IMG/VR virus record: IMGVR_UViG_3300042868_009577 | Location: 1-54,385 of that record | Length of the DNA: 54,385 nucleotides | Source: a virus | Direction: 5' to 3' (one strand) | Shown here: positions 11,052 through 38,271 of the stretch, piece after piece | How the letters are laid out: every line of letters starts with the position of its first letter | Position numbering within the stretch: position 1 is the stretch's first letter | Translations under genes and position numbers: made by a program | Notes under the pieces: model-generated | Databases searched by the model: none | The model's input: the letters and a program-made list of their open reading frames with translations, nothing else | Told to the model about the DNA's origin: nothing

Positions 11052-11423
11052 TTATGCGTTTGTTAATTCTAATATAGACATGTTTTCTGAATTTGTCAAC
11101 TTTTTATGTAAATTTAAAATATCTTGACATTTTTCATATTCTTCAATTTCTTCAAAATGAGTTAAAATGAAATCAATAAGAATGTCCGCCTCATTTTTTC
11201 TAAAAACAAATTCTGTGCTAAAATCAACGGGCCCAACTAATTCTGAAACGGTTGTTGACTGAACAAGATATTTAATTGTTTTTCTATTACTATTGCTAAG
11301 CAAATTAAAACAATCAAAAATACCTTGGTAAATTCTTGTTTTATTCTTTTCAAAAAAATCGGTATAACCATTATATTTTCCGGTTATAACTACTTCAATA
11401 ACTTTAGGTATTTTATTATTCAT
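11052..11423 (-). CDS. Unknown protein in the RNA-repair operon
   Basis: 123 residues, no recognised family. The sequence is predicted mostly helical after a beta-like start (KVIEVVITGKYNGYTDFFEKN); it is acidic at the C-terminus, with no signal peptide or membrane segment. Its start overlaps the end of the RNA ligase gene by 8 nt, so it is the third and last gene of a coupled kinase-ligase operon. Context suggests an accessory to RNA repair or a protein co-expressed early, but nothing in the sequence proves this. Confidence 0.6.
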   Translation of the reverse strand: MNNKIPKVIEVVITGKYNGYTDFFEKNKTRIYQGIFDCFNLLSNSNRKTIKYLVQSTTVSELVGPVDFSTEFVFRKNEADILIDFILTHFEEIEEYEKCQDILNLHKKLTNSENMSILELTNA

Positions 11424-12606
11424 CTTTTTTAAATGGTTTTGAATAATTTGGATATATGATTTTCCAAATATTTTGTTTATGATCTTTTCCGTCTAACATG
11501 TTAAATAAAATGTTAGAGTGCCTATAATGTTTTGCTTTAAAAGCAAACTCTTTTCTATCTAAATTTTGTAATTTTAAATTTTCATAAATCTCAATATAAT
11601 CCTTATTGATATTATCAAATCTAATCGTTAAATCTCTTACTGTTTTCTTAACCCAATCATTAAATTCGTCTGGAACTTTTTCAAGTAATTCATCAAATGG
11701 TTTATTATCTTTCAAATATTCCCATATGTCTCTATTTGATATATTAGTTAATATTCGATGTAATCGAACATATTCATCACCTTTAATCTTCATTCTAAAT
11801 CCGTTTTTAAAACGAATTACATAACCTTCTTTATGCTTACTAATTTCTTCTTTTAGTAAATCAAAACCTTCACCCCAGGTTTTATATGTGACAACAAGTT
11901 TAAATCCTAAATTTTTAAATAAATTATTTAATCGAATATCTTCATTTGAATCATTATGAATATTGACCTCGGAACCATTTTTAATATTAATTACTCCAAG
12001 TAAGATCAAATCTTCATAATCATATTCACAGACAATTCTATTTTCTGGATAAATTATCTCAAACAAATATGTGTATTCCTTTGGTAAACGCTTGTAATCA
12101 TACTTTTCAAGGATCTCACGACCTTTTATAGACTGTGGTGATGTGAATGATCCACGAGTAGCTAAAATCCACTCACCCTTAGTTTTTGGTGTTGGTTCGT
12201 AGTATGAATTATCAAAGTCAGGGAGATTGTTTGGATCAAAAAATCTTTCCATACCGGTTTCGTAATTATTATTAAACCATATGTTATATCTTCGTTCATC
12301 ACTTAACTCTTCTTCATAATAAAAAAGAATACCTAGCGATCCATCCATTTTTTCATATACCTCAAAAAATTCATTTGGTAAATCTTCTGGTTTATGTTCT
12401 TCGTAATTAAAAAATTTATTAAATGGTCTTGCAACAATATCACCATTTGAATTAGTCACTAAACCACGGCACTGTATTGTAATTTCATCCCATAATTTTT
12501 CGTATTGAACCTTTGGTGTATAATTCCAAATAGTTAAATCTAAAGTTGGGTGAGTTTGTTTATGTAATAAACCATCTTGAAAATATTTTTCTAATATGTT
12601 TAACAT
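11416..12606 (-). CDS. rnlA: T4 Rnl1-type RNA ligase
   Basis: 396 residues, close to T4 RNA ligase 1 (374). The nucleotidyltransferase motifs are visible in order: motif I EKMDGS (Lys86 is the predicted AMP-accepting lysine), preceded by the CRGLV strand; the conserved ATRGSF block; LFEIIYPENRIV (motif IIIa-like); EGYVIRF (motif IV) and FRMKIKG (motif V). The enzyme joins RNA ends using ATP. In T4 it works with a polynucleotide kinase to mend tRNAs cut by host anticodon nucleases such as PrrC. The P-loop kinase gene lies 9 nt upstream in the same operon. The C-terminal ~130 residues probably form the substrate-specific domain. Confidence 0.9.
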   Translation of the reverse strand: MLNILEKYFQDGLLHKQTHPTLDLTIWNYTPKVQYEKLWDEITIQCRGLVTNSNGDIVARPFNKFFNYEEHKPEDLPNEFFEVYEKMDGSLGILFYYEEELSDERRYNIWFNNNYETGMERFFDPNNLPDFDNSYYEPTPKTKGEWILATRGSFTSPQSIKGREILEKYDYKRLPKEYTYLFEIIYPENRIVCEYDYEDLILLGVINIKNGSEVNIHNDSNEDIRLNNLFKNLGFKLVVTYKTWGEGFDLLKEEISKHKEGYVIRFKNGFRMKIKGDEYVRLHRILTNISNRDIWEYLKDNKPFDELLEKVPDEFNDWVKKTVRDLTIRFDNINKDYIEIYENLKLQNLDRKEFAFKAKHYRHSNILFNMLDGKDHKQNIWKIIYPNYSKPFKKDE

Positions 12607-12615
12607 TTGTTGTGT

Positions 12616-13038
12616 TTATAATGATACTTCAAATCTATCTTTCATTTGATGGATTTTTTCTTCTGGTACGTTGTGTACATTAACCCCATCGTGTCTATTT
12701 TCAACTATAACTGAATGGATTCTATAGTTATATCTTTCAGCCATTTCGTAATATGGTTTCATTTCCCATTCTTGGGTAAATGTGTTTGCAACAACTATTT
12801 TATAAATTCCTAGTTTCATTTTTTCCGCGCATTTCTGTTGACACATATTATGCGCTTCTTTAATTCTATCTGGTTCAAAATTATACACACCATTTGAATC
12901 AACAAATAAATCATCCGCAGATAAAACTGTGTTAGTTGTTAATTGTGGACTATTTAAAATAGCATCACCTAGCGTACTTTTACCTGATCCAGGAATACCT
13001 CTTAATAGTATTAGGTCACCAATAAAATCTTTTTCCAT
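12616..13038 (-). CDS. P-loop polynucleotide kinase-like protein
   Basis: 140 residues. A Walker A motif GIPGSGKST lies at 14-22 after a hydrophobic strand. LSADDLF follows at about 40, and a VVANTFTQEWEM block at about 82 corresponds to the switch strand of the AAA_33/zeta-toxin/T4 Pnk kinase-like P-loop family. It lacks the phosphatase half of T4 Pnkp. Placed directly before the RNA ligase, it most likely phosphorylates 5'-OH RNA ends for sealing. It starts within the stop of the small membrane-protein gene upstream (TAATG) and shares its host-type promoter. A different small-molecule kinase cannot be excluded. Confidence 0.75.
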   Translation of the reverse strand: MEKDFIGDLILLRGIPGSGKSTLGDAILNSPQLTTNTVLSADDLFVDSNGVYNFEPDRIKEAHNMCQQKCAEKMKLGIYKIVVANTFTQEWEMKPYYEMAERYNYRIHSVIVENRHDGVNVHNVPEEKIHQMKDRFEVSL

Positions 13039-13657: not shown

Positions 13658-15676
13658 CTAAATAATTTTACTTTTAATCAGTAATTTATCTTTATATACC
13701 AATTTTATTGACTCATTTTCTTTTATGACATCTTTTAGTATCTCATCACTAATAAAATCTTCACATAGTGATTGTATAATTCGTTTTATTGGTCTGGCGC
13801 CAAATTCAATCTCTTTATTCTTAGAAAGGATTTCATTGGTAACGCTTTGATCAAATGAAATAAGATACTTTTTATCTTTTAATCTTTTAACCAACTTGTC
13901 TAACTCTAATTTTATAATCCTTTTTAGCGATTCTTCATTTAATGGATTAAATAAAATAATATCATCAATTCTATTTAAAAATTCCGGATTAAATTGCTGT
14001 TTTAAAGCTTTTTGAATCATTGTTTTTTTAACAAATTCTTTTTGTTCATTACTACTATTAGTTGAAAAGCCAACGCCTCCACCAAATTCGGAAACTTTCT
14101 TAGCGCCAACGTTTGAAGTCATAATGATTAAGGTATTAGCAAAATCAACTTTTCTACCAAAAGAATCTGTTAGATGACCTTCGTCTAAAATTTGTAATAA
14201 TAAATTGAATACATCTTTATGTGCTTTTTCAATTTCATCAAATAAAATAACACTAAATGGGTTGTTTTTAACTTTTTCGGTTAACTGACCACCTTCATCA
14301 TAACCAACATAACCAGGAGGCGAACCAATAAGTCTTGATACTGAATGTTTTTCCATAAATTCACTCATATCAACCCTGATTACTTTGTCTTGTGAACCAA
14401 AAATTTGTTCCGCTAATGTCTTGGCTAAATAAGTTTTACCAACACCGGTTGATCCTAGAAATATAAATGATCCAATTGGTTTGGCACCATCTTTAATGCC
14501 AACTCGATTTCTACGAATGGCTTTAGAAATGGACGCAATAGCATCTTCTTGCCCAATAACTCTAGTAGATAAGTTGGTTTCAAGATTTAATAAGTCTTTA
14601 GTTTCTTTACCATCTATTTTAAAAATTGGGACTCCGGTCATTGATGATACTATGGCGTAAACATCTTCTGTTGAAACACTTATTAAATTATTTTTTTGTT
14701 TGTTTAACCATTTATCTTTTTCATCTTCTAACTTGGTTTGTAACTTCTTTTCTTCATCTCTTAGTTTTGCGGCATGTTCGTAGTCTTGAGATTTAACAAC
14801 TTCAATTTTTTTAGTTTTCAAAATCTCAATTTCAGTGTTTAACCTTTCTATTGATTCCGGTATTTTTACCGCGACCCTTTTCTCGGACCCTAATTCATCT
14901 AGGACATCAATTGCTTTATCTGGAAATTGTTTATCACTCATATATCTACCAGATAATTTAACAATAGTTTCAACCACATCTTGTTCATAACTAACCTTAT
15001 GGAAGTTTTGATATGAATCTTTTAAATTATTTAAAATTTCAACTGTTTCTTCTTCCGTAGGTTCAGTTAGGATAATTTTTTGAAACCTTCTAACTAGTGC
15101 CCCATCTTTTTCGATATGTTTTTTAAATTCATCAAAAGTTGTTGCGCCAATACATTGTATTTCACCTCTAGCTAACGCTGGCTTTAAGATATTAGCCGCG
15201 TCCATAGATCCACTAGCATTACCAGCTCCAACCATCGTATGCAATTCGTCTATAAAAATAACAACATCAGTATTTTCTTGCAATTCATGTAGAATAGCTT
15301 TGATTCTTTCTTCAAATTGACCACGATATTTTGTTCCAGCAACGAGCGATGTTAAATCTAACGAGACAATTCGTTTATCCACTAAACTAGGCGGGCATTC
15401 CCCGTTAACTATCATTAATGCCAATTTTTCAACAAGCGCTGATTTACCAACACCAGCTTCACCGACAATAACCGCATTATTTTTCTTTTTTCTTGATAAA
15501 ATTTGTGCGATTCTTTTAACCTCTTTGTCCCTACCAATAATAGGGTCTATCCTACCTTCCTTAGCCAATTTATTTAAATCTCTAGAAAAGTTATCTAATA
15601 TTGGTGTATTAGAAAGATTTTTTCTAGCTTTTGTGTTTGGTTTTGGGGAATCTTCGTAACTAAAATCTACAGACAT
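13658..15676 (-). CDS. ClpC-like AAA+ protein unfoldase lacking the N domain
   Basis: 672 residues against roughly 810-850 for host ClpC. Two complete AAA+ modules are visible: Walker A1 GEAGVGKS (72-79), Walker B1 VIFIDE (139-144), Walker A2 GSTGVGKT (408-415), Walker B2 ILFDE (477-481). A short middle segment has a UVR-like helix (SQDYEHAAKLRDEEKKL, ~297-312), typical of ClpC and not ClpB. VGF at 535-537, in the loop after GGG, matches the ClpP-docking tripeptide position. The N-terminal substrate/adaptor domain is missing: only ~30 residues precede the first module. It probably unfolds proteins for host ClpP. A host-type promoter and 8-bp repeats precede it, and a small heat-shock gene diverges from it. 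Confidence 0.88.
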   Translation of the reverse strand: MSVDFSYEDSPKPNTKARKNLSNTPILDNFSRDLNKLAKEGRIDPIIGRDKEVKRIAQILSRKKKNNAVIVGEAGVGKSALVEKLALMIVNGECPPSLVDKRIVSLDLTSLVAGTKYRGQFEERIKAILHELQENTDVVIFIDELHTMVGAGNASGSMDAANILKPALARGEIQCIGATTFDEFKKHIEKDGALVRRFQKIILTEPTEEETVEILNNLKDSYQNFHKVSYEQDVVETIVKLSGRYMSDKQFPDKAIDVLDELGSEKRVAVKIPESIERLNTEIEILKTKKIEVVKSQDYEHAAKLRDEEKKLQTKLEDEKDKWLNKQKNNLISVSTEDVYAIVSSMTGVPIFKIDGKETKDLLNLETNLSTRVIGQEDAIASISKAIRRNRVGIKDGAKPIGSFIFLGSTGVGKTYLAKTLAEQIFGSQDKVIRVDMSEFMEKHSVSRLIGSPPGYVGYDEGGQLTEKVKNNPFSVILFDEIEKAHKDVFNLLLQILDEGHLTDSFGRKVDFANTLIIMTSNVGAKKVSEFGGGVGFSTNSSNEQKEFVKKTMIQKALKQQFNPEFLNRIDDIILFNPLNEESLKRIIKLELDKLVKRLKDKKYLISFDQSVTNEILSKNKEIEFGARPIKRIIQSLCEDFISDEILKDVIKENESIKLVYKDKLLIKSKII

Positions 15677-21173: not shown

Positions 21174-21200
21174 AAAAGTGGTCCCAAAGACCACTTTTTT
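21174..21200 (+). terminator. Terminator between late operon and terminase
   Basis: AAAAGTGGTC (21174-21183), loop CCAAA, GACCACTTTT (21189-21198) plus further Ts. A 10-bp perfect stem ends only 2 nt before the TATTTATA motif of the terminase gene. Confidence 0.9.
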
Positions 21201-21202
21201 AA

Positions 21203-21210
21203 TATTTATA
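21203..21210 (+). promoter_or_regulatory. TATTTATA late-type motif, 3 nt before terminase
   Basis: Exact TATTTATA ending 3 nt before the ATG at 21214. Because a terminator lies immediately upstream, this must be close to the whole promoter, and the mRNA leader would be almost absent. Confidence 0.7.
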
Positions 21211-21213
21211 TAT

Positions 21214-22989
21214 ATGAGTCAAAAAATAGAACAATTAAAAGAGTACGCACGTATCATAAAAGATACTCCATATGCGCTTAAGACATATCTTCAGACGTTT
21301 GACAACACACAAAAAAGATTCGTACCATTAGAGTTATTTCCAGATCAAATACAATTGTTAAAAGATTACGAATCTTATAATGAAAATATTACTAGAAAAT
21401 ATCGACAGGCTGGTGTTACAACAGTAACAGCCGCTTGGTTATCTAAAAAATTACAATTAGCGAAACCAGAAAATCCTGAGAGAGTTTTGATCATCGCTAA
21501 CAAGCGAGATACCGCAATTGAAATGGCTAACAAAGTTAGAACGTTTTTAGATCAATGGCCTGACTGGATTAATGTGGGGTTTTCTGCAGATAAAAATTCT
21601 GAAAGTAGATATCGATTAAATAATGGTTGTGAGGTTAAAGCTGTTGCAACATCTGCGGATGCACTACGTGGTTATACACCAACCATATTAGTATTTGATG
21701 AGGCCGCGTATATTGAGGCTGGAGACGACTTTTGGGCGGCGTCTATGGCGTCATTGTCAACCGGGGGTAAGATTATACTTATCTCAACACCAAATGGTTT
21801 TGACCCAATATATTATGGTGTTTACGAACAAGCTATTAGAGGTATCAATGATTTTCATATAACAGATTTAAGATGGTTTAAGGACCCGCGTTATACAAAA
21901 GACCTTGTGTTTATTAAGGTCCCTGATATTGTACATTATATGCTCAATAGGGAACAGTATAATGACGACGAGGTTATTCTAAAAGATTTTGATTTAGAAA
22001 ACTATGAAGAACTTCTTAACGAAGGATATCAACCATATTCTACTTGGTTTGAGTCCATGTCTAAGAAATTTAAATATGATAAAAGAAAAATAGCGCAAGA
22101 ACTTGAATGCGACTTTCTTGGATCTGGAGATAGTGTAATCCCAACTGAAACTATGGAAAGGATTGCGAAAACTATGATTAAAACCCCTAAAGAAAAATAT
22201 ATGCAGGGAACTCTTTGGCAATGGAAAGACCCACAGGAGGGACATAGATATATTATGGGAGTGGATGTTAGTAGGGGTGATAGTGATGACTTTTCTTCTA
22301 TTAGTATTATAGATTTTGATGACAGAGAACAGGTTCTTGAATATGTTGGTAAAATACCACCAGATGACTTAGCATCAATAGCTTATAAATGGGGTATTTT
22401 ATATAACGCATTTATTGTTATTGATATTACCGGTGGTATGGGTGTTGCAACATCAAGAAAACTACAGGAAATGAATTATAAAGATTTATTTATTGACGGG
22501 TTTAACACTAAAAACGTTTGGGAGTATAATTCAAAAGCATTAGAAAAGATTCCTGGAATAAATTTTAACAATAAAAGAACACAAATTGTTGCTTGTTTTG
22601 AAGAACAGCTTAGACATAGTTTTATTGTTAGATCTAATAGATTATTAAATGAGTTGAATACTTTTGTGTATATAAATGGTAAGCCAAACCATATGAAAGG
22701 TGCTCATGATGACGCTATTATGGCGATTGCTATTGCAATGTATGCTGGTGACATATCTTTCACACAATTAAAAAGAAACGAACAACAGAATAAAGCGATG
22801 TTGGAATCTTGGGTTATGTCAGAAAGGACATATGAAGCCGACACAACACATTACTCATATGGGGGTACTCTGGACCAAATAGGATCTATGTCAATTGACG
22901 GGTCATCAAATAACATGTTTGGGAGTACACCGAGTAAATCACAGTATAACCAATATTCTTGGTTATTTGGTACAAATAAAAAGGGTTGA
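21214..22989 (+). CDS. Terminase large subunit, T4 gp17-like
   Basis: 591 residues from ATG 21214; an in-frame GTG at 21178 lies inside the terminator and is rejected. ATPase: a Walker-A-like RQAGVTT at 64-70, Walker B ILVFDEAA (158-165) and the coupling motif STP (191-193). The usual Walker A lysine is replaced by Val68. Nuclease: MGVDVSRGDSDDF (Asp351), IVIDITGG (Asp404) and GAHDDAI (Asp499/500) supply the RNase-H-like acidic cluster. It cuts and pumps phage DNA into the prohead through the portal, encoded next. It is alone between a terminator and the portal's own promoter. Confidence 0.93.
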   Translation: MSQKIEQLKEYARIIKDTPYALKTYLQTFDNTQKRFVPLELFPDQIQLLKDYESYNENITRKYRQAGVTTVTAAWLSKKLQLAKPENPERVLIIANKRDTAIEMANKVRTFLDQWPDWINVGFSADKNSESRYRLNNGCEVKAVATSADALRGYTPTILVFDEAAYIEAGDDFWAASMASLSTGGKIILISTPNGFDPIYYGVYEQAIRGINDFHITDLRWFKDPRYTKDLVFIKVPDIVHYMLNREQYNDDEVILKDFDLENYEELLNEGYQPYSTWFESMSKKFKYDKRKIAQELECDFLGSGDSVIPTETMERIAKTMIKTPKEKYMQGTLWQWKDPQEGHRYIMGVDVSRGDSDDFSSISIIDFDDREQVLEYVGKIPPDDLASIAYKWGILYNAFIVIDITGGMGVATSRKLQEMNYKDLFIDGFNTKNVWEYNSKALEKIPGINFNNKRTQIVACFEEQLRHSFIVRSNRLLNELNTFVYINGKPNHMKGAHDDAIMAIAIAMYAGDISFTQLKRNEQQNKAMLESWVMSERTYEADTTHYSYGGTLDQIGSMSIDGSSNNMFGSTPSKSQYNQYSWLFGTNKKG

Positions 22990-23025: not shown

Positions 23026-23038
23026 TATTTATACAATA
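23026..23038 (+). promoter_or_regulatory. Extended late motif TATTTATACAATA overlapping the portal start codon
   Basis: The 13-bp motif is identical to the copies at 17332 and 26307; its last A is the first base of the portal ATG (23038). Any transcript starting downstream of the motif would be nearly leaderless. Confidence 0.7.
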
Positions 23039-24846
23039 TGGCAAACAAAGATTTAACAATTTTTCAGAAGTTAACTAAGGTTTTTGGGTTTGAAAATTCA
23101 CCAGCTGACACACAACCATCTTTTAAATTTTCAAGAGATGAGTTGTTGAAAACTGGCGATCCAGTTGAATTTGAAAAAGCTAAGTTACAAGCACAACAAT
23201 CCCATTATCTTTTTGATAAATGGGCTAAATTAGATAATTCATTATATAACCAATCTGTTTATTATGAACCAACTAGATTGTCAGCTTATTATGACTATGA
23301 GTCAATGGAGTTTACTCCAGAGATTTCGGCAGCATTGGACATATATTCGGAAGAATCAACAACATTATCCGAAAAAGGACAAATATTAACAGTTTATTCT
23401 GAATCAAATAGAGTAAAAAATATCTTAACCGATCTTTTTGAAAACAAATTAGACATAAATACTAACCTACAAATGTGGGCTAGAAATTTATGTAAATATG
23501 GTGATAATTTTGTCTATTTAAAAAGTGATCCTGAACAAGGTATTATTGGGTGTCAACAATTACCAAATATTGAATTGGAGAGATGGGAAGGAGCACAAAA
23601 TAGAAACCCAAACCAATCAGACATTAAAATGTCTACCCGTGAGTTACGTTTTAGTTGGAAAAATAAAGACATGGAATTCCAATCATGGGAAATTGCTCAC
23701 TTCAGATTATTGGGTGACGATAGAAAATTACCTTATGGAACTTCTATGTTAGATAAGATTAGAAGAATTTGGAAACAACTTCTACTTGCTGAAGATGCGA
23801 TGTTAATTTATAGAACATCAAGAGCACCAGAAAGACGTGTATTTAAAATATTCGTTGGTAATATGGATGATAAAGATATTGAACCATATGTACAACGTGT
23901 TGCTAACAAATTTAAAAGAGATACTGTGGTTGACCAAAGAAATGGTAACGTTGATATGCGTTACAATCAAATGGCGGTCGATCAAGACTTTTTCATACCT
24001 GTTAGAGATCCGGCAGCGCCTAGTCCAATTGAAACTTTAGCTGGTGCGCAAAATTTAGGAGAGATCGCGGATATTGAATACATCCAGAAAAAATTATTAG
24101 CAGCATTGCGTATTCCTAAAGCATTTTTAGGATTTGAAGAAGTTGTTGGTGATGGTAAGAATCTAGCTTTAATGGATATGCGTTTTGCTAGAACAATTAA
24201 TAGAATACAAAAATCATTAATACAAGAGTTAAATAAAGTAGCTTTAATTCATTTATACCTATTAGGTTTAGAAGACGAATTAGAAAATTTTACACTAGGT
24301 TTAACAAACCCATCAGCACAATCAGATTTATTAAAGATTGAACAATGGAAAGAAAAGGTGACACTTTATAAAGATGCCACTTCAGATCAATCTCAAGTGG
24401 GTATTCTTCCTGTTTCACATACTTGGGCTAAGAAGAACATTCTTGGTATGAGTGATAATGAAGTATTACTCGATTTACAACAACAACGAATTGAAAGAGC
24501 TATGGGCTTTGAGTTATTGAATACACAGACAATTATTAAGCGTTCTGGTGTGTTTGATGAAGTTGATAGTAAATATGGTATACCAGAAGACGAAAGACAG
24601 AAAATTGAAGATCAGGGAGCTGAGGGTGACGCAGAAGGTGGAGGAATGCCACCGTCATCACCGTCACCACCATCACCACCTTCGGCTGGTGGATCTGATG
24701 GTGAGCCGTTAAGTGAAAGTAAGATTAGAAAGATTAAATCTTATTTAGGTGAAACGGAAAATATTGGGGACCTTTTTAATATGGAAAAGGCACAAAAGAA
24801 TATTTATGAAATAGAAAATAAATTGAAAGATATATTAAATGACTAA
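23038..24846 (+). CDS. Portal protein, T4 gp20-like
   Basis: 602 residues (T4 gp20 has 524). The fold signature is clear: YYEPTRLSAYYDYESMEFTPEISAALDIYSEE near the start, KYGDNFVYL, then APERRVFKIFVGNM, a long helical crown region with LRIPKAFLGFEE and ARTINRIQKSLIQELNKVALIHLYL. It forms the dodecameric ring at one head vertex through which DNA is packaged. A disordered Pro/Ser/Gly stretch (PPSSPSPPSPPSAGGSDG) near 545 precedes a C-terminal helix SESKIRKIKSYLGE that resembles tails of other late proteins here. The next gene starts 2 nt after its stop. Confidence 0.93.
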   Translation: MANKDLTIFQKLTKVFGFENSPADTQPSFKFSRDELLKTGDPVEFEKAKLQAQQSHYLFDKWAKLDNSLYNQSVYYEPTRLSAYYDYESMEFTPEISAALDIYSEESTTLSEKGQILTVYSESNRVKNILTDLFENKLDINTNLQMWARNLCKYGDNFVYLKSDPEQGIIGCQQLPNIELERWEGAQNRNPNQSDIKMSTRELRFSWKNKDMEFQSWEIAHFRLLGDDRKLPYGTSMLDKIRRIWKQLLLAEDAMLIYRTSRAPERRVFKIFVGNMDDKDIEPYVQRVANKFKRDTVVDQRNGNVDMRYNQMAVDQDFFIPVRDPAAPSPIETLAGAQNLGEIADIEYIQKKLLAALRIPKAFLGFEEVVGDGKNLALMDMRFARTINRIQKSLIQELNKVALIHLYLLGLEDELENFTLGLTNPSAQSDLLKIEQWKEKVTLYKDATSDQSQVGILPVSHTWAKKNILGMSDNEVLLDLQQQRIERAMGFELLNTQTIIKRSGVFDEVDSKYGIPEDERQKIEDQGAEGDAEGGGMPPSSPSPPSPPSAGGSDGEPLSESKIRKIKSYLGETENIGDLFNMEKAQKNIYEIENKLKDILND

Positions 24847-24848
24847 AA

Positions 24849-25586
24849 ATGAATAAAATTGGGGTTGTAAAAAGTAAGATTTTAAAAAAATTAACAGAAT
24901 CGTTTAGTACAAACGATAAATCTGAAATGAAAACTATCCTAAGTAAGATAGTTTCAAATAAAGATTTTAAAGAAATGTATTTGTTTTATGAAGAAATTGA
25001 AAACAAATATTTCGATAACATGGATACAGCGAAGTTGTATGTTGAAGAATTGAATTTAATTTTAAAGAATAAAGCTAAAAGTATTAGCGAGTTTTGTAAG
25101 GAGTTAAACGAAAGTCTAAAAACAATAGATGTTGACACGCACGAATTATACTCATATCTAGACCAATTATCTGAAGATGATAATTTAAGTAATTTAGATA
25201 AAAAAGTTATTGCTAAGAAAAAATTAGTTGAACATTTAACAAAAAAGAAAGATGTTAAATTAGAAGAAGGTGTTGATTATACAAATAACGAAAATTTATT
25301 GTATTCCGTTTTAGCAAATAATTTTAACGCCCTTTATTCACAGAATCTAAATGAAGAACAAAAAGAAGAATTGAAAACCATTTTATCTATGTCTGATGAC
25401 GACTTAAATGGTAGTATTTCTGATTTAAAAGAAACAGTTTTATCTAAGGTTAATAATATTCTTAGTGAAGAAACTGATAGTGACTTATCCGGTAAGTTAA
25501 ACAACGTTGTTCTAGAGGTTAACTCTATGGAAACATCAAAATACAACTATTATAGATTAAAGCAGTTAAAGGATGGTCTTGATTAA
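24849..25586 (+). CDS. Helical prohead-core-like protein
   Basis: 245 residues, almost wholly helical and rich in Lys, Glu, Asp and Leu with coiled-coil character; no enzyme motif. It sits exactly where T4 carries the small prohead-core genes 67 and 68, between portal and protease. LTESFS at ~16 is a possible L-x-E cleavage site near the N-terminus. The last codons lie within a perfect palindrome shared with the convergent bS21 gene, whose 3' end overlaps it by 4 nt. The core-protein call is positional. Confidence 0.55.
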   Translation: MNKIGVVKSKILKKLTESFSTNDKSEMKTILSKIVSNKDFKEMYLFYEEIENKYFDNMDTAKLYVEELNLILKNKAKSISEFCKELNESLKTIDVDTHELYSYLDQLSEDDNLSNLDKKVIAKKKLVEHLTKKKDVKLEEGVDYTNNENLLYSVLANNFNALYSQNLNEEQKEELKTILSMSDDDLNGSISDLKETVLSKVNNILSEETDSDLSGKLNNVVLEVNSMETSKYNYYRLKQLKDGLD

Positions 25587-25602
25587 TCAAGACTATCTTT
25601 TA
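25572..25602. terminator. Palindromic bidirectional terminator overlapping two gene ends
   Basis: GTCTTGATTAATCAAGAC (25576-25593) is a perfect 18-bp palindrome, extendable to 25572-25597 with one G-U pair and followed by TTTTA on the plus strand. Both stop codons (TAA 25584-25586 and, on the minus strand, 25585-25583) lie at its centre, so the hairpin belongs to both coding sequences. Confidence 0.7.
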
Positions 25603-25768
25603 TCCCCTGAATATACTTAGCTTTTAATATTTCCGCTCTTTTTATCACAGACGGTTTCACAAATTCCTGTCTTTTTCTTAACTCCTGAATTTGTTTTACA
25701 TCACGTACTTTATTCTTATATTGTTTTAAAGCGATTTCGATCCCTTTATTCACATCAATCATTAACAT
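25583..25768 (-). CDS. rpsU: Ribosomal protein bS21, Bacteroidota type
   Basis: 61 residues. The signature is strong: IEIALKQYKNKV, then LRKRQEFVKPSVIKRAEILKAKY, which matches the bS21 core (LRRRQxFxKPSVxRR) in its Bacteroidota form with the longer C-terminal KAxYIQ helix. bS21 binds the small subunit near the 3' end of 16S rRNA. In Bacteroidota, bS21 with bS18 and bS6 helps sequester the anti-Shine-Dalgarno tail. A phage copy could replace host bS21 and shift initiation toward phage mRNAs. It lies alone on the minus strand inside the plus-strand head operon. A second Met at codon 3 is an alternative start. Confidence 0.88.
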   Translation of the reverse strand: MLMIDVNKGIEIALKQYKNKVRDVKQIQELRKRQEFVKPSVIKRAEILKAKYIQGIKDSLD

Positions 25769-25812
25769 AATTAAAAATTTATTTTAGATTATTTGTTTTT
25801 TTAAGAAAAAAC

Positions 25813-25827
25813 AAGTATATTATACTT
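25813..25827. repeat. Inverted repeat between bS21 and the divergent gene
   Basis: AAGTATA-T-TATACTT, a perfect 7-bp inverted repeat, lies 45 nt upstream of bS21 and 36 nt upstream of the plus-strand gene at 25863. It could be an operator for either gene. Confidence 0.45.
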
Positions 25828-25862
25828 ACACCATAATATATATAAAATTATGTAAAAAGTTA

Positions 25863-26306: not shown

Positions 26307-26319
26307 TATTTATACAATA
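26307..26319 (+). promoter_or_regulatory. Extended late motif TATTTATACAATA before the prohead protease
   Basis: Third exact copy of the 13-bp motif, ending 15 nt before the ATG at 26335. Confidence 0.7.
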
Positions 26320-26334
26320 TATTAATATATCTAA

Positions 26335-27024
26335 ATGAAAGTATTAGGACCTAATGAAACCGGGAAGGGAATTTTAATTGAATATGATGCTGGTCATATT
26401 TCTCCCGGTGATTTAAATAACAAAAATGTAATAACAGAAATACAAAATAAAGATACCGATCAGGACTTTATTTTGTACGCTGTTTTACAGAAATATGATA
26501 CCCCAAATAAAAACGGTAGAATCTATCCTCAGAGTTTATTAAAAAGGGAAGACCAGAAGTATCAAGAAATAATGAAAAAAGGTTCAGCGCTAAACGAGCT
26601 GAATCACCCATCGTCATCACTTATTGACTTAGATAGGGTATCTCACACCATTGAAGAAACATGGTGGGATGGTAAAACCTTAATGGGTAAAATCAAACTA
26701 TTAACATCACCAGGATTTAGAAAAATGGGTATCGTTAGTTGTAAGGGAGACCAAGCAGCTATGTTACTTATTAACGGAGTTACTCTAGGTATTTCATCTA
26801 GAGGTGTTGGATCGTTAAAACAAGTTAAAGGTCAAAACATCGTACAAGATGATTTTGAATTAGTTTGTTTTGACTTAGTTTCTTCACCATCAACACCTGG
26901 TGCGTATGTTTTTCAAGACATTGGCGATAAAGATAAATTTAACGAAACTATTGAAGAAAAACCTCTTGTTGACGATAGGATGAAGAAATTGATGGGTGGA
27001 CTAGACAAATTTTTAAACAAATAA
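26335..27024 (+). CDS. Prohead core protease, T4 gp21-like
   Basis: 229 residues (T4 gp21 has 212). The serine-protease motifs of the herpesvirus-like fold are visible: the histidine in LNELNHPSS (about 86-94) and the serine in LGISSRGVGS (about 152-161), embedded in the typical VSHTIEETWWDGKTLMGKI context. It cleaves scaffold, capsid and other prohead proteins after an L/I-x-E motif. It sits between core-like genes and the scaffold, as in T4. A hairpin terminator follows, and the scaffold gene has its own late motif. Confidence 0.92.
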   Translation: MKVLGPNETGKGILIEYDAGHISPGDLNNKNVITEIQNKDTDQDFILYAVLQKYDTPNKNGRIYPQSLLKREDQKYQEIMKKGSALNELNHPSSSLIDLDRVSHTIEETWWDGKTLMGKIKLLTSPGFRKMGIVSCKGDQAAMLLINGVTLGISSRGVGSLKQVKGQNIVQDDFELVCFDLVSSPSTPGAYVFQDIGDKDKFNETIEEKPLVDDRMKKLMGGLDKFLNK

Positions 27025-27088: not shown

Positions 27089-27096
27089 TATTTATA
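27089..27096 (+). promoter_or_regulatory. TATTTATA late-type motif before the scaffold gene
   Basis: Exact motif, 19 nt before the ATG at 27116 and directly after the protease terminator. Confidence 0.65.
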
Positions 27097-27115: not shown

Positions 27116-28300
27116 ATGAGTGAAAAATCAATTTTAGAACAAGCGTTACTTCAAGTTAATACACTTGAAGAAGCAGTGAAGCAAAATGCAAAAGGTATAC
27201 TTTCATCAGTAATGAAGAAAGAACTAAACGATTTGCTTAAAGAATCAGAAGAAGAGGAAGAAGCAGCTGATGCTGTAGATCCTACAGAAGAGGAAGAAGA
27301 TATGTCAGAACAGCCAGAATTGGATGACGAAGAGGCTGAAGATGAAGATGAAATGTCCTCGATAAATGATGAACCATCAAAAGATATTGACGGCGAAGAT
27401 GAGTCTGCAGAAATGGAAGACGATGAAGACGCTGAAATGGAAGAACCAGAAATGGATGATGATTTACCATCAATGGATGGCATGGATATGCCAACCGGTG
27501 ACGACGACATGTTAGACATGACAGGTGCTTCTGATGAGGAAGTTCTTAAAGTGTTTAAAGCAATGTCAGATGAAGATGGTATCGTTGTTAAAAAAGACGG
27601 TAACAACATTGAACTATCAGATGATGGGGACGAGTACATCATTAAGCTAGACGAATCTGAAGATGCTTATGATGAAACCGATGATGAAGAGGTTTCTGAA
27701 GAGTATGAAGAAGAGGAAATGGCTGAAGAAGATGAAACTGTTTACGAAATTGACCTAGGCGATGATGATGACGAAGAAGAAGCACCTGAAGAAGAAATGG
27801 GTGAAGCTGCTCGTACAAAATGGAACGCACACGGTGGTGTAAGAACTGGTTTAAAAAGTAAAAAACTTTTTGCTGCCGGCGCTAAAAATGAATCAAAATC
27901 ATCAAGTGCAATTAATGAACAAGTTGAAACTTTGAAAAAACAAAACCAAGAGTATAAAAAAGCTTTAGTGTTGTTTAAAGATAAGTTAAATGAAGTCGCT
28001 GTATTCAACGCTAATTTAGCTCACGCTACAAGATTGTTCACAGAGCATTCAACAACAAAAACAGAGAAATTGGAAATTTTGAAAAGATTTGATACCGTTT
28101 CTACTATAAATGAATCAAAAAATCTTTTTACATCAATTCGCGCAGAATTAGAAACTAAAAAACCAGTTACTGAATCTATGGCGGGTAAAATTTCATCATC
28201 ACCTTCTACATCATCTTCACAAGAGATGTTATCTGAGTCAAAAGCATATGAAGCACCTCAGTTTAGAAGAATGAGAGATTTAATGAGTAAATTAAAATAA
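27116..28300 (+). CDS. Prohead scaffold protein, T4 gp22-like
   Basis: 394 residues. The first ~40 are helical (LEQALLQVNTLEEAVKQNAKGIL). Residues ~42-235 are extremely acidic, with long Asp/Glu runs and Met-Asp-rich segments. The C-terminal third is a coiled coil (NEQVETLKKQNQEYKKALVLFKDKLNEVAVFNANLAHATRLF) ending LSESKAYEAPQFRRMRDLMSKLK. Acidic plus helical composition and the position between protease and major capsid gene identify it as the core scaffold on which the capsid assembles before proteolytic removal. Sequence identity to T4 gp22 itself is not obvious. Confidence 0.85.
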   Translation: MSEKSILEQALLQVNTLEEAVKQNAKGILSSVMKKELNDLLKESEEEEEAADAVDPTEEEEDMSEQPELDDEEAEDEDEMSSINDEPSKDIDGEDESAEMEDDEDAEMEEPEMDDDLPSMDGMDMPTGDDDMLDMTGASDEEVLKVFKAMSDEDGIVVKKDGNNIELSDDGDEYIIKLDESEDAYDETDDEEVSEEYEEEEMAEEDETVYEIDLGDDDDEEEAPEEEMGEAARTKWNAHGGVRTGLKSKKLFAAGAKNESKSSSAINEQVETLKKQNQEYKKALVLFKDKLNEVAVFNANLAHATRLFTEHSTTKTEKLEILKRFDTVSTINESKNLFTSIRAELETKKPVTESMAGKISSSPSTSSSQEMLSESKAYEAPQFRRMRDLMSKLK

Positions 28301-28335: not shown

Positions 28336-30069
28336 ATGGGAGCATTATTAGAATCAGGTATGGTAGGTAACATCGGGTTAAAACACCTTAGAGTTATCAA
28401 AGAAGATACCATCAAAAAATGGGATGACTTAGGATTCCTAGAAGGCCTAGACGGTCACCAAAGAGATAACATCGCGCAATTGTATGAAAACCAAGCGTCA
28501 CACTTAATCAACGAAGCAGCAGTTTCTGATGCTAGTGGTTCATTTGAGACAGTGGTATTCCCTATCATTCGTCGTGTGTTTTCTAAATTATTAGCAAACG
28601 ATATCGTTTCAGTACAAGCAATGAACTTACCAATCGGTAAATTGTTCTACTTCGTACCTAAAATTCAAGACAGAAATGCTGGTGCACACTATCAGCCATT
28701 TGGTATGCCAGGTAACAGCGCCGCTGCTACTGACGGTTACAGTGATAGTTCAAAGAACCTTTATGATCGTTTTTACGAAGCGTCTGACGCAAACGACCAA
28801 GGTTTATTTGACTACTCAAAAGGTGCTTACACAACTGAAGAAGTTAATCCACACGCTTTTATCACATTTGATAACGGAGCAACAACAGCTACAACAGCAG
28901 CACTAAGTGGTTCATCACTTTCTAGTGTTATCGTTGTACTTTCTGGATTCACAAAAGACGGACAAGGTAAAATGGTTGGTGCTAACGGTAACATGATGGA
29001 TACTGAAGAGTTCTTAGCTTCACTTCAAATTGAAGTAACTGGTAACACTACAGCAAACAACGGTGTTAAAAACTTTAACGTTGTAACTCAAAAATATGGT
29101 AAAGGTATTGTTGAGTACGGTGGAAAATCTGGTAGTGGTTTAAGTAGATATCATGATATTTGTGATGAAGAAGGTTTAATCTACCTTAACGTAGATTTAG
29201 AAAGCTATAGCACAACAAGCGGTTTTGCTGGTTCTGACTTTAGCGCTAACGACTTAGCTTTAGCTAACTTCAAAGTAACTTATAGAGCATACGAAACTTT
29301 AGAATTTGAAGATAATATCGGTGAAGTATCATTTGATTTAGCTTCTGTAACAGTTTCTGTGACTGAAAGAAAATTAAGAGCTTCTTGGTCTCCAGAATTG
29401 GCACAAGACGTTTCTGCTTTCCATAATATCGATGCTGAAGCTGAATTAACAGCTTTATTATCTGAGCAAATCGCTGCTGAGGTTGACCGTGAAATTTTAC
29501 GTGACCTTAGAAAAGGTGCTGCTTGGACTGCTAAGTGGGATTACAACGAGTGGAAATACGGTGCTACTGGAAACACTCCATACATGGGTTACACTCAAAA
29601 AGACTGGAACCAAACATTGATCACTAAGATCAACCAGGTTTCTGCTCAAATCCACAAATCTACTTTGAGAGGTGGTGCTAACTGGATCGTAGTTTCTTCA
29701 GAAGTTTCTGCTGTATTCGATGATTTAGAGTACTTCCACGTATCAAACGCTAATCCAGAGCAAGATCAATACAACATGGGTATCGAAAAAATCGGTACAC
29801 TTGCTGGACGTTACCAAGTATTCCGTGATCCATATTTACCAGCTGGTAAGATTTTGATCGGTCACAAAGGTAAATCATTATTGGATGCTGGTTATATCTA
29901 CGCACCTTACGTGCCGTTACAATTAACTCCAACAATGTACAATCCATTTAACATGACACCTATCAAAGGTATCATGACGAGATACGCAAAGAAAATGGTT
30001 AACAACCGTTACTTTGGTTTGATCAACGTAAGTGGTTTACAAACGTTCGATATGAATACTTTAAGATAA
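28336..30069 (+). CDS. Major capsid protein, T4 gp23-like
   Basis: 577 residues (T4 gp23 has 521). The N-terminus VGNIGLKHLRVIKEDTIKKW and the LYENQASHLINEAA block are characteristic of the gp23 family, followed by ETVVFPIIRRVFSKLLANDIVSVQAMNLPIGKLFYF. LINE ends at Glu60, giving a likely protease cut between 60 and 61 (T4 gp23 is cut after Glu65). The HK97-type core extends to the end. Codon choice here is visibly richer in C-ending codons than in neighbouring genes, as expected for the most highly expressed gene. A terminator follows 19 nt after the stop. Confidence 0.95.
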   Translation: MGALLESGMVGNIGLKHLRVIKEDTIKKWDDLGFLEGLDGHQRDNIAQLYENQASHLINEAAVSDASGSFETVVFPIIRRVFSKLLANDIVSVQAMNLPIGKLFYFVPKIQDRNAGAHYQPFGMPGNSAAATDGYSDSSKNLYDRFYEASDANDQGLFDYSKGAYTTEEVNPHAFITFDNGATTATTAALSGSSLSSVIVVLSGFTKDGQGKMVGANGNMMDTEEFLASLQIEVTGNTTANNGVKNFNVVTQKYGKGIVEYGGKSGSGLSRYHDICDEEGLIYLNVDLESYSTTSGFAGSDFSANDLALANFKVTYRAYETLEFEDNIGEVSFDLASVTVSVTERKLRASWSPELAQDVSAFHNIDAEAELTALLSEQIAAEVDREILRDLRKGAAWTAKWDYNEWKYGATGNTPYMGYTQKDWNQTLITKINQVSAQIHKSTLRGGANWIVVSSEVSAVFDDLEYFHVSNANPEQDQYNMGIEKIGTLAGRYQVFRDPYLPAGKILIGHKGKSLLDAGYIYAPYVPLQLTPTMYNPFNMTPIKGIMTRYAKKMVNNRYFGLINVSGLQTFDMNTLR

Positions 30070-37572: not shown

Positions 37573-38271
37573 TTAATCTAAAAACCCAACTAAAACACCA
37601 TTATATAAATTTTTATACTTTTTTAATGAGATTCTAATCTCTTTAGTTGATAATGAGGTCATCTCTCTAAGGGATAGTAAAATTAAATTTTTGTTGAATT
37701 TGTTACCATCACCAATTTGAAAAATCATTTCAAAATTGCTAAAAATCTCTAGAAGTGCGTAACCTAATTTTTTTTCATTGTCCGTTAAATCTTCATTTTC
37801 AACAAATTCTTCTAACTTATTGGATAACTTAATAATAACATTACTATAGTCAACGAAACTTTCATCAATTGTATAGGAAAAATCTACCCTACTCTCAATA
37901 TCTTCTGAGATGTCTTCATATGAAATACTACGGTTTTGTTCCTTAGTATCCTTTTGAATGGCCCCCATAAGGTAGTTTTTACAAATGGTACCAAAATATG
38001 AGTAGGCTTTGTAGTTTTTAGTGTGGTCAAACTTATTAATTTTGGTAATTAGAAAAGACATAGTATCGTTATGAATTTCTTCAAATTCTAAATCTTTTCT
38101 ATATAATTTATAACGTCGAATAATTGATTCGACCATTATAACTAGGGGTTCACGTAAATATTCGTTGAATATCTTATTTCTTTCTGCTTCATCATTACTT
38201 TCTAAGTAGTTGACTACCGCCTTTTCTTGATCCTCCCCAAAATATACTTTTTGGGTTCTTGGTCTTGGCAT
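37573..38271 (-). CDS. Late-transcription sigma factor, T4 gp55-like
   Basis: 232 residues (T4 gp55 has 185). Residues ~25-125 look like sigma region 2: IFNEYLREPLVIMVESIIRRYKLY, then FEEIHNDTMSFLITKINKFD followed by TKNYKAYSYFGTICKNYLMGAIQKD, the aromatic, basic helix that in gp55 and sigma-70 contacts the -10 region. A helical C-terminus without a clear region 4 fits gp55. In T4, gp55 with gp33 and the sliding clamp directs host polymerase to TATAAATA promoters. Here it is the obvious candidate to read TATTTATA. It starts inside the stop of the upstream glycosyltransferase gene. Confidence 0.75.
   Translation of the reverse strand: MPRPRTQKVYFGEDQEKAVVNYLESNDEAERNKIFNEYLREPLVIMVESIIRRYKLYRKDLEFEEIHNDTMSFLITKINKFDHTKNYKAYSYFGTICKNYLMGAIQKDTKEQNRSISYEDISEDIESRVDFSYTIDESFVDYSNVIIKLSNKLEEFVENEDLTDNEKKLGYALLEIFSNFEMIFQIGDGNKFNKNLILLSLREMTSLSTKEIRISLKKYKNLYNGVLVGFLD

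Follow-up and report, generated by a model that had tools for sequence, protein, structure and literature searches.

The presence of a bS21 gene among the head genes of a phage raises the question of what a virus does with a ribosomal protein of this type. The window, that is, the whole 54,385-nt IMG/VR record analysed here, contains a single S21 gene, an open reading frame of 61 codons on the minus strand (25583-25768 in the ORF listing), and no bS21 is encoded on the plus strand of that interval. The product of 61 amino acids, MLMIDVNKGIEIALKQYKNKVRDVKQIQELRKRQEFVKPSVIKRAEILKAKYIQGIKDSLD, matched Pfam S21 (PF01165) with 37.9 bits (E=1.5e-9), above the curated cut-off of 27 bits, and its best PDB sequence match was chain z (bS21) of 7jil (E=5.3e-13, near full-length alignment), the ribosome of Flavobacterium johnsoniae (PMC9723584). 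The protein carries a KPSV core and a KAKYIQ tail. An earlier note on this DNA had recognized a Bacteroidota-type bS21 with KPSV core and KAxYIQ tail, and these results confirm that the gene is real and is a virus-carried bS21 of that type.

Relatives of the phage bS21, 45-100% identical, were found in 28 viral contigs, and a profile scan detected them in more than 300 viral contigs. The median pairwise dN/dS among relatives was 0.16, which, together with their occurrence in many IMG/VR contigs, indicates a gene maintained under purifying selection and not a chance open reading frame. Scanning genome contigs with the phage bS21 profile returned zero cellular relatives, the genome-contig scan with F. 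johnsoniae bS21 recovered 80 hosts, and when two host-like bS21 sequences were used to scan viral contigs, the first gave one distant relative and the second none. The host genomes of the bS21 comparison were picked by profile score, not randomly. Phylogenetic analysis (90 rows, 64 columns) placed the 38 phage rows in one group (support 94/82), nested among Bacteroidota hosts of the Tyr54 type, with host L280 as sister. A single origin of phage bS21 is favoured rather than proved by this tree, because it has only 64 columns and its phage rows were selected by similarity.

Genomic context analysis revealed the order TerL-portal-hypothetical-bS21 (reversed)-hypothetical-protease-scaffold-MCP, with the same order and strands in about 90 IMG/VR contigs. 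TerL of these syntenic relatives was mostly 73-92% identical to that of the window, and one of them (L053) lies on a 203-kb contig. The features of the region are collected in the table.

Features of the bS21 region in the window (positions in the 54,385-nt record)
Feature	Position	Strand	Remarks
Intrinsic terminator-like hairpin	21174..21198	+	Ends preceding transcript, 4 nt before TATTTATA box
TATTTATA box	21203..21210	+	Abuts TerL ATG; putative late promoter
Terminase large subunit (TerL)	21211..22989	+	Start ATG at 21211; GTG at 21178 rejected as start, as it sits inside the preceding terminator
TATTTATA box	23026..23033	+	12 nt before portal ATG
Portal protein	23038..24846	+	
Hypothetical protein, 245 aa	24849..25586	+	Convergent with bS21, 4-nt overlap; beside bS21 in syntenic relatives; no PHROG match, Pfam match sub-threshold only
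Phage rpsU, bS21 61 aa	25583..25768	-	PF01165, 7jil match, dN/dS 0.16
Divergent intergenic region, 94 bp	25769..25862		Leaders/promoters of bS21 (-) and 25863 gene (+)
Hypothetical protein, 142 aa	25863..26291	+	Adjacent to bS21 and divergent from it; possibly the 'bS21_CN' described by Chen et al.
TATTTATA box	26307..26314	+	28 nt before protease ATG
Head maturation (prohead) protease	26335..27024	+	
TATTTATA box	27089-27096		Further window copy
Probable scaffold	27116..28300	+	By position; without family match
Major capsid protein (MCP)	28336..30069	+	Long A-rich leader without TATTTATA box

The same gene arrangement, a reverse-strand bS21 in a TerL-portal-protease-MCP block, was described in Bacteroidetes phages of clades a-e (Chen et al., 2022, ISME Commun 2:31; PMC9723584), and the window bS21 therefore belongs to this published group. 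Common to both are the reversed bS21 between two hypothetical genes within that block, the GC range (31.0-33.7% in the bS21 phages, 31.9% in the window), an aromatic residue at position 54 and the Bacteroidota type of the protein; the published genomes, however, measure 293-331 kb, while the window is a 54-kb fragment. According to these authors bS21 is transcribed with the late genes, and they hypothesized that phage bS21 becomes part of host ribosomes, to the advantage of phage transcripts. The start-site switching by phage bS21 proposed in the earlier note is this published hypothesis and is not new. The bS21 leader and autoregulation are not discussed by Chen et al.

The leader of the gene was compared with those of host rpsU genes. 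An obvious Shine-Dalgarno (SD) sequence is present in F. johnsoniae at a single gene, rpsU, which is translated best by ribosomes without bS21, and this constitutes a feedback loop; such bS21-deficient ribosomes prefer the SD-rich rpsU mRNA and work poorly on mRNAs that have no SD (McNutt et al., 2023; PMC9976891). Pairing of rpsU leaders with the anti-SD (ASD) was scored with RNAduplex using the 16S tail UCACCUCCUUUCU as the one ASD type, and pairing stronger than -13 kcal/mol was taken as the extended SD of an autoregulated rpsU. The window bS21 leader scored +1.8 kcal/mol and thus has no SD, and no purine-rich run was seen in it by eye. All 53 distinct Flavobacterium rpsU leaders were below -18 kcal/mol (extended SD), and phylum-wide (n=90) 64% of the leaders were below -13 kcal/mol. 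The 70 distinct phage bS21 leaders had a median of -0.6 and a strongest value of -5.4 kcal/mol; since phage bS21 forms one group in the tree, the absence may be a single inherited event, in which case the leaders do not count as independent data points. In a wider viral set with an aromatic residue at position 54, pairing was weaker than -8 kcal/mol in 110 of 114 distinct bS21 genes, the exceptions with a moderate or strong SD being L283 (-12.1), L319 (-14.3), L317 (-9.7) and L323 (-9.6 kcal/mol). These four, among them the 735-kb phage record LR756501 (L283), bear an SD on bS21 in neighbourhoods that are otherwise SD-less. Some Bacteroidota host rpsU leaders are also SD-less (L252, L267, L271, L249, and L250), and a loss in phages is therefore assured only for a donor gene that had an SD, like the rpsU of the sister host L280. 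Base composition was rejected as the cause of the missing SD, since the AT-rich Flavobacterium rpsU leaders all bear one.

The lack of an autoregulatory SD, unlike every sampled Flavobacterium rpsU, is the most informative feature of the phage gene and had been missed by the earlier note. The phage and F. johnsoniae genes are alike in family, in the Tyr54 contact and in being transcribed alone, but the phage gene has no extended SD, which in the host gene is the regulatory element. McNutt et al. discuss phage bS21, described there as the commonest phage-encoded ribosomal protein, without an analysis of phage leaders (PMC9976891), and as far as we found in openly licensed papers, a phage bS21 without the long SD leader of the host looks unreported. 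The most likely reading, to which we give an even chance, is that the phage, as its leader suggests, supplies a ribosome-competent bS21 outside the feedback loop of the host.

The absence of SD sequences from the remaining genes has to be read differently. The median ASD pairing of the 56 scored window genes was -1.25 kcal/mol, compared to -0.9 kcal/mol for shuffled upstream sequences, in agreement with the SD absence noted before. Bacteroidota genes as a rule have no SD (PMC8710568), so that SD-less phage genes say nothing about a special bS21, and any host ribosome replete with bS21 already translates genes of the kind that the phage late genes represent. On this baseline, the argument of the earlier note that absent SDs support start-site switching does not hold.

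The Bacteroidota -7 promoter box has the consensus TAnnTTTG. This pattern was found at -36 to -39 from the rpsU ATG in all 80 Flavobacterium loci, the SD lying between box and ATG, and at -24 to -27 in 24 of 51 bS21 leaders (1.4 expected) of syntenic phages outside the clade of the window. In many phage relatives the box is about 12 nt nearer to the bS21 ATG than in Flavobacterium, which suggests that the SD segment was removed. The F. johnsoniae rpsU leader was predicted to be 25 nt long (PMC9976891), placing the transcript start about 12 nt after the box begins; with the same spacing, the phage leader would measure about 13 nt and have no room for an extended SD. These boxes, as well as those described below, are sequence patterns and not mapped starts. 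The clade of the window has neither TAnnTTTG nor TATTTATA within reach of the bS21 ATG, and still no SD.

The sequence TATTTATA was present as an exact match before TerL in 40 of 45 related upstreams (37 at -11; 0.7 expected) and before the portal gene in 46 of 51 (-11 or -12 in almost every case; 1.1 expected), and farther from the ATG before the protease and scaffold genes. With one mismatch allowed, 46 of the 48 syntenic relatives had it before bS21, as against 18.9 expected, and -12 was its commonest position (21 cases). It was absent from operon-internal genes and from MCP. The layout terminator-box-ATG at TerL, with the box directly after the terminator-like hairpin, is common to most relatives. 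Taken together, TATTTATA is probably a late promoter from which late mRNAs without a leader, or almost without one, would arise. The T4 late box TATAAATA is similar to it but not identical, and no paper joining TATTTATA, late promoter and phage was found in the openly licensed literature. A weak match to sigma-70 region 2 / late sigma factor at 37573-38271 (-) is a candidate reader of TATTTATA. The very short leaders attributed to the late genes before are thus plausible for TerL and portal, where most of the related upstreams have the box 11-12 nt from the ATG, but not for the MCP or the window bS21, which have no box. The long A-rich leader upstream of the MCP (28336), with neither SD nor TATTTATA, is conserved across relatives.

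The position of these boxes bears on a rival explanation, in which host rpsU falls at shut-off and the phage restocks an exchangeable protein, so that the SD would be absent through short phage leaders, or because it was never needed, and would carry no regulatory meaning. Late-gene boxes at 11-12 nt from the ATG indicate that short leaders may be general in these phages, bS21 is essential in F. johnsoniae, and its exchangeability is illustrated by the viral bS21 found in E. coli ribosomes (PMC6375957). This explanation predicts neither the SD that four other viral bS21 genes bear amid SD-less neighbours nor the strong divergence of the N-terminal helix, and we regard it as quite unlikely.

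The divergence of that helix became apparent when 67 distinct phage proteins were compared with 47 Tyr54-type Bacteroidota host sequences. For the ASD pocket the contact compared was Tyr54 alone (F. johnsoniae numbering; Y52 in the window bS21), which is Tyr in 64 and Phe in three of the 67 phage proteins and Tyr in 47 of 47 hosts, and this conservation argues that the ASD-pocket function is kept. K40, S42, R46, and A52 were also kept in the phage proteins. The N-terminal helix, by contrast, differs almost completely from that of hosts, with near-fixed differences at positions 10, 14, 18, 21, 23, 24, 28, and 30; host R14, R18, R21, F23, D24, T28, and R30 are almost entirely replaced, and several arginines are gone. 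The N-terminal divergence had already been reported by Chen et al. (2022; PMC9723584), who placed the divergent part nearest to the mRNA.

The changed helix speaks in favour of some altered ribosome specificity, and a full switch, by which it would make ribosomes prefer phage late mRNAs over host mRNAs, can be considered. The near-fixed differences with their lost arginines, the placement of the divergent part where the mRNA would run and the late co-expression of phage bS21 (PMC9723584) fit this proposal. The pocket residue is unchanged, however, the divergence of the helix could be drift or escape from host factors, and phage late and host mRNAs are both SD-less (PMC8710568), so that no start-site feature telling them apart is apparent; such a switch seems unlikely. 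A role outside the ribosome, with bS21 borne in the particle or countering a translation-arrest defence of the host, was raised in both forms in PMC9723584 and agrees with the location of the gene among head genes. It is very improbable, because the protein is conserved at the same positions as ribosomal bS21 and still has Tyr54, as expected for a component of the ribosome.

Supply of bS21 outside the feedback loop would require that the phage protein enters host 30S subunits. The bS21 of Pelagibacter phage HTVC008M was shown to enter E. coli 70S ribosomes (Mizuno et al., 2019; PMC6375957), which makes replacement of host bS21 by phage bS21 plausible. That protein is likewise virus-encoded and under purifying selection, but it comes from a phage of another host phylum, without the ASD-pocket biology of Bacteroidota. 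Once incorporated, the conserved C-terminal Tyr would hold the 16S 3' tail with the ASD in the bS21-bS18-bS6 pocket, and the ribosomes would stay replete and active on SD-less mRNAs, those of the phage among them. An extended SD links host rpsU to ribosomes deficient in bS21; the phage bS21 mRNA has none, so synthesis of the phage protein would not be throttled when ribosomes are replete, while each phage bS21 on a ribosome would lower translation of host rpsU. From the sequences we infer incorporation into Bacteroidota ribosomes, escape from feedback and repression of host rpsU. McNutt et al. speculated that host autoregulation is a counter-defence that replenishes host bS21 (PMC9976891), and an ASD-occluding phage bS21 would blunt it. 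A further-reaching version, in which phages freed bS21 from feedback so that ribosomes become SD-blind, host rpsU is switched off and the pool gradually contains only phage bS21, is tentative, and we lean against it.

A ClpC-like double AAA+ unfoldase with a UVR motif, in which no N-terminal domain was seen, is encoded at 13658-15676 (-); in the window phage and several relatives its gene adjoins an Hsp20 gene and lies some 10 kb away from bS21. In a speculation of McNutt et al., host bS21 is the target of a phage-encoded protease (PMC9976891). A T4 Rnl1-type RNA ligase (PF09511) and a P-loop kinase-like protein (AAA_33) are encoded by adjacent genes at 11416-12606 and 12616-13038 (-); the pair looks like T4-style tRNA repair, possibly countering anticodon nucleases.

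The proposed supply of bS21 outside host control leads to the prediction that, in a genetically tractable host, phage bS21 represses an rpsU reporter and is not itself repressed, and L283, L317, L319, and L323 offer natural contrasts for testing the feedback. In Flavobacterium, the production of host bS21 is regulated by the protein itself by way of the only strong SD in the genome, and the phage copies of the gene are nearly all without it.
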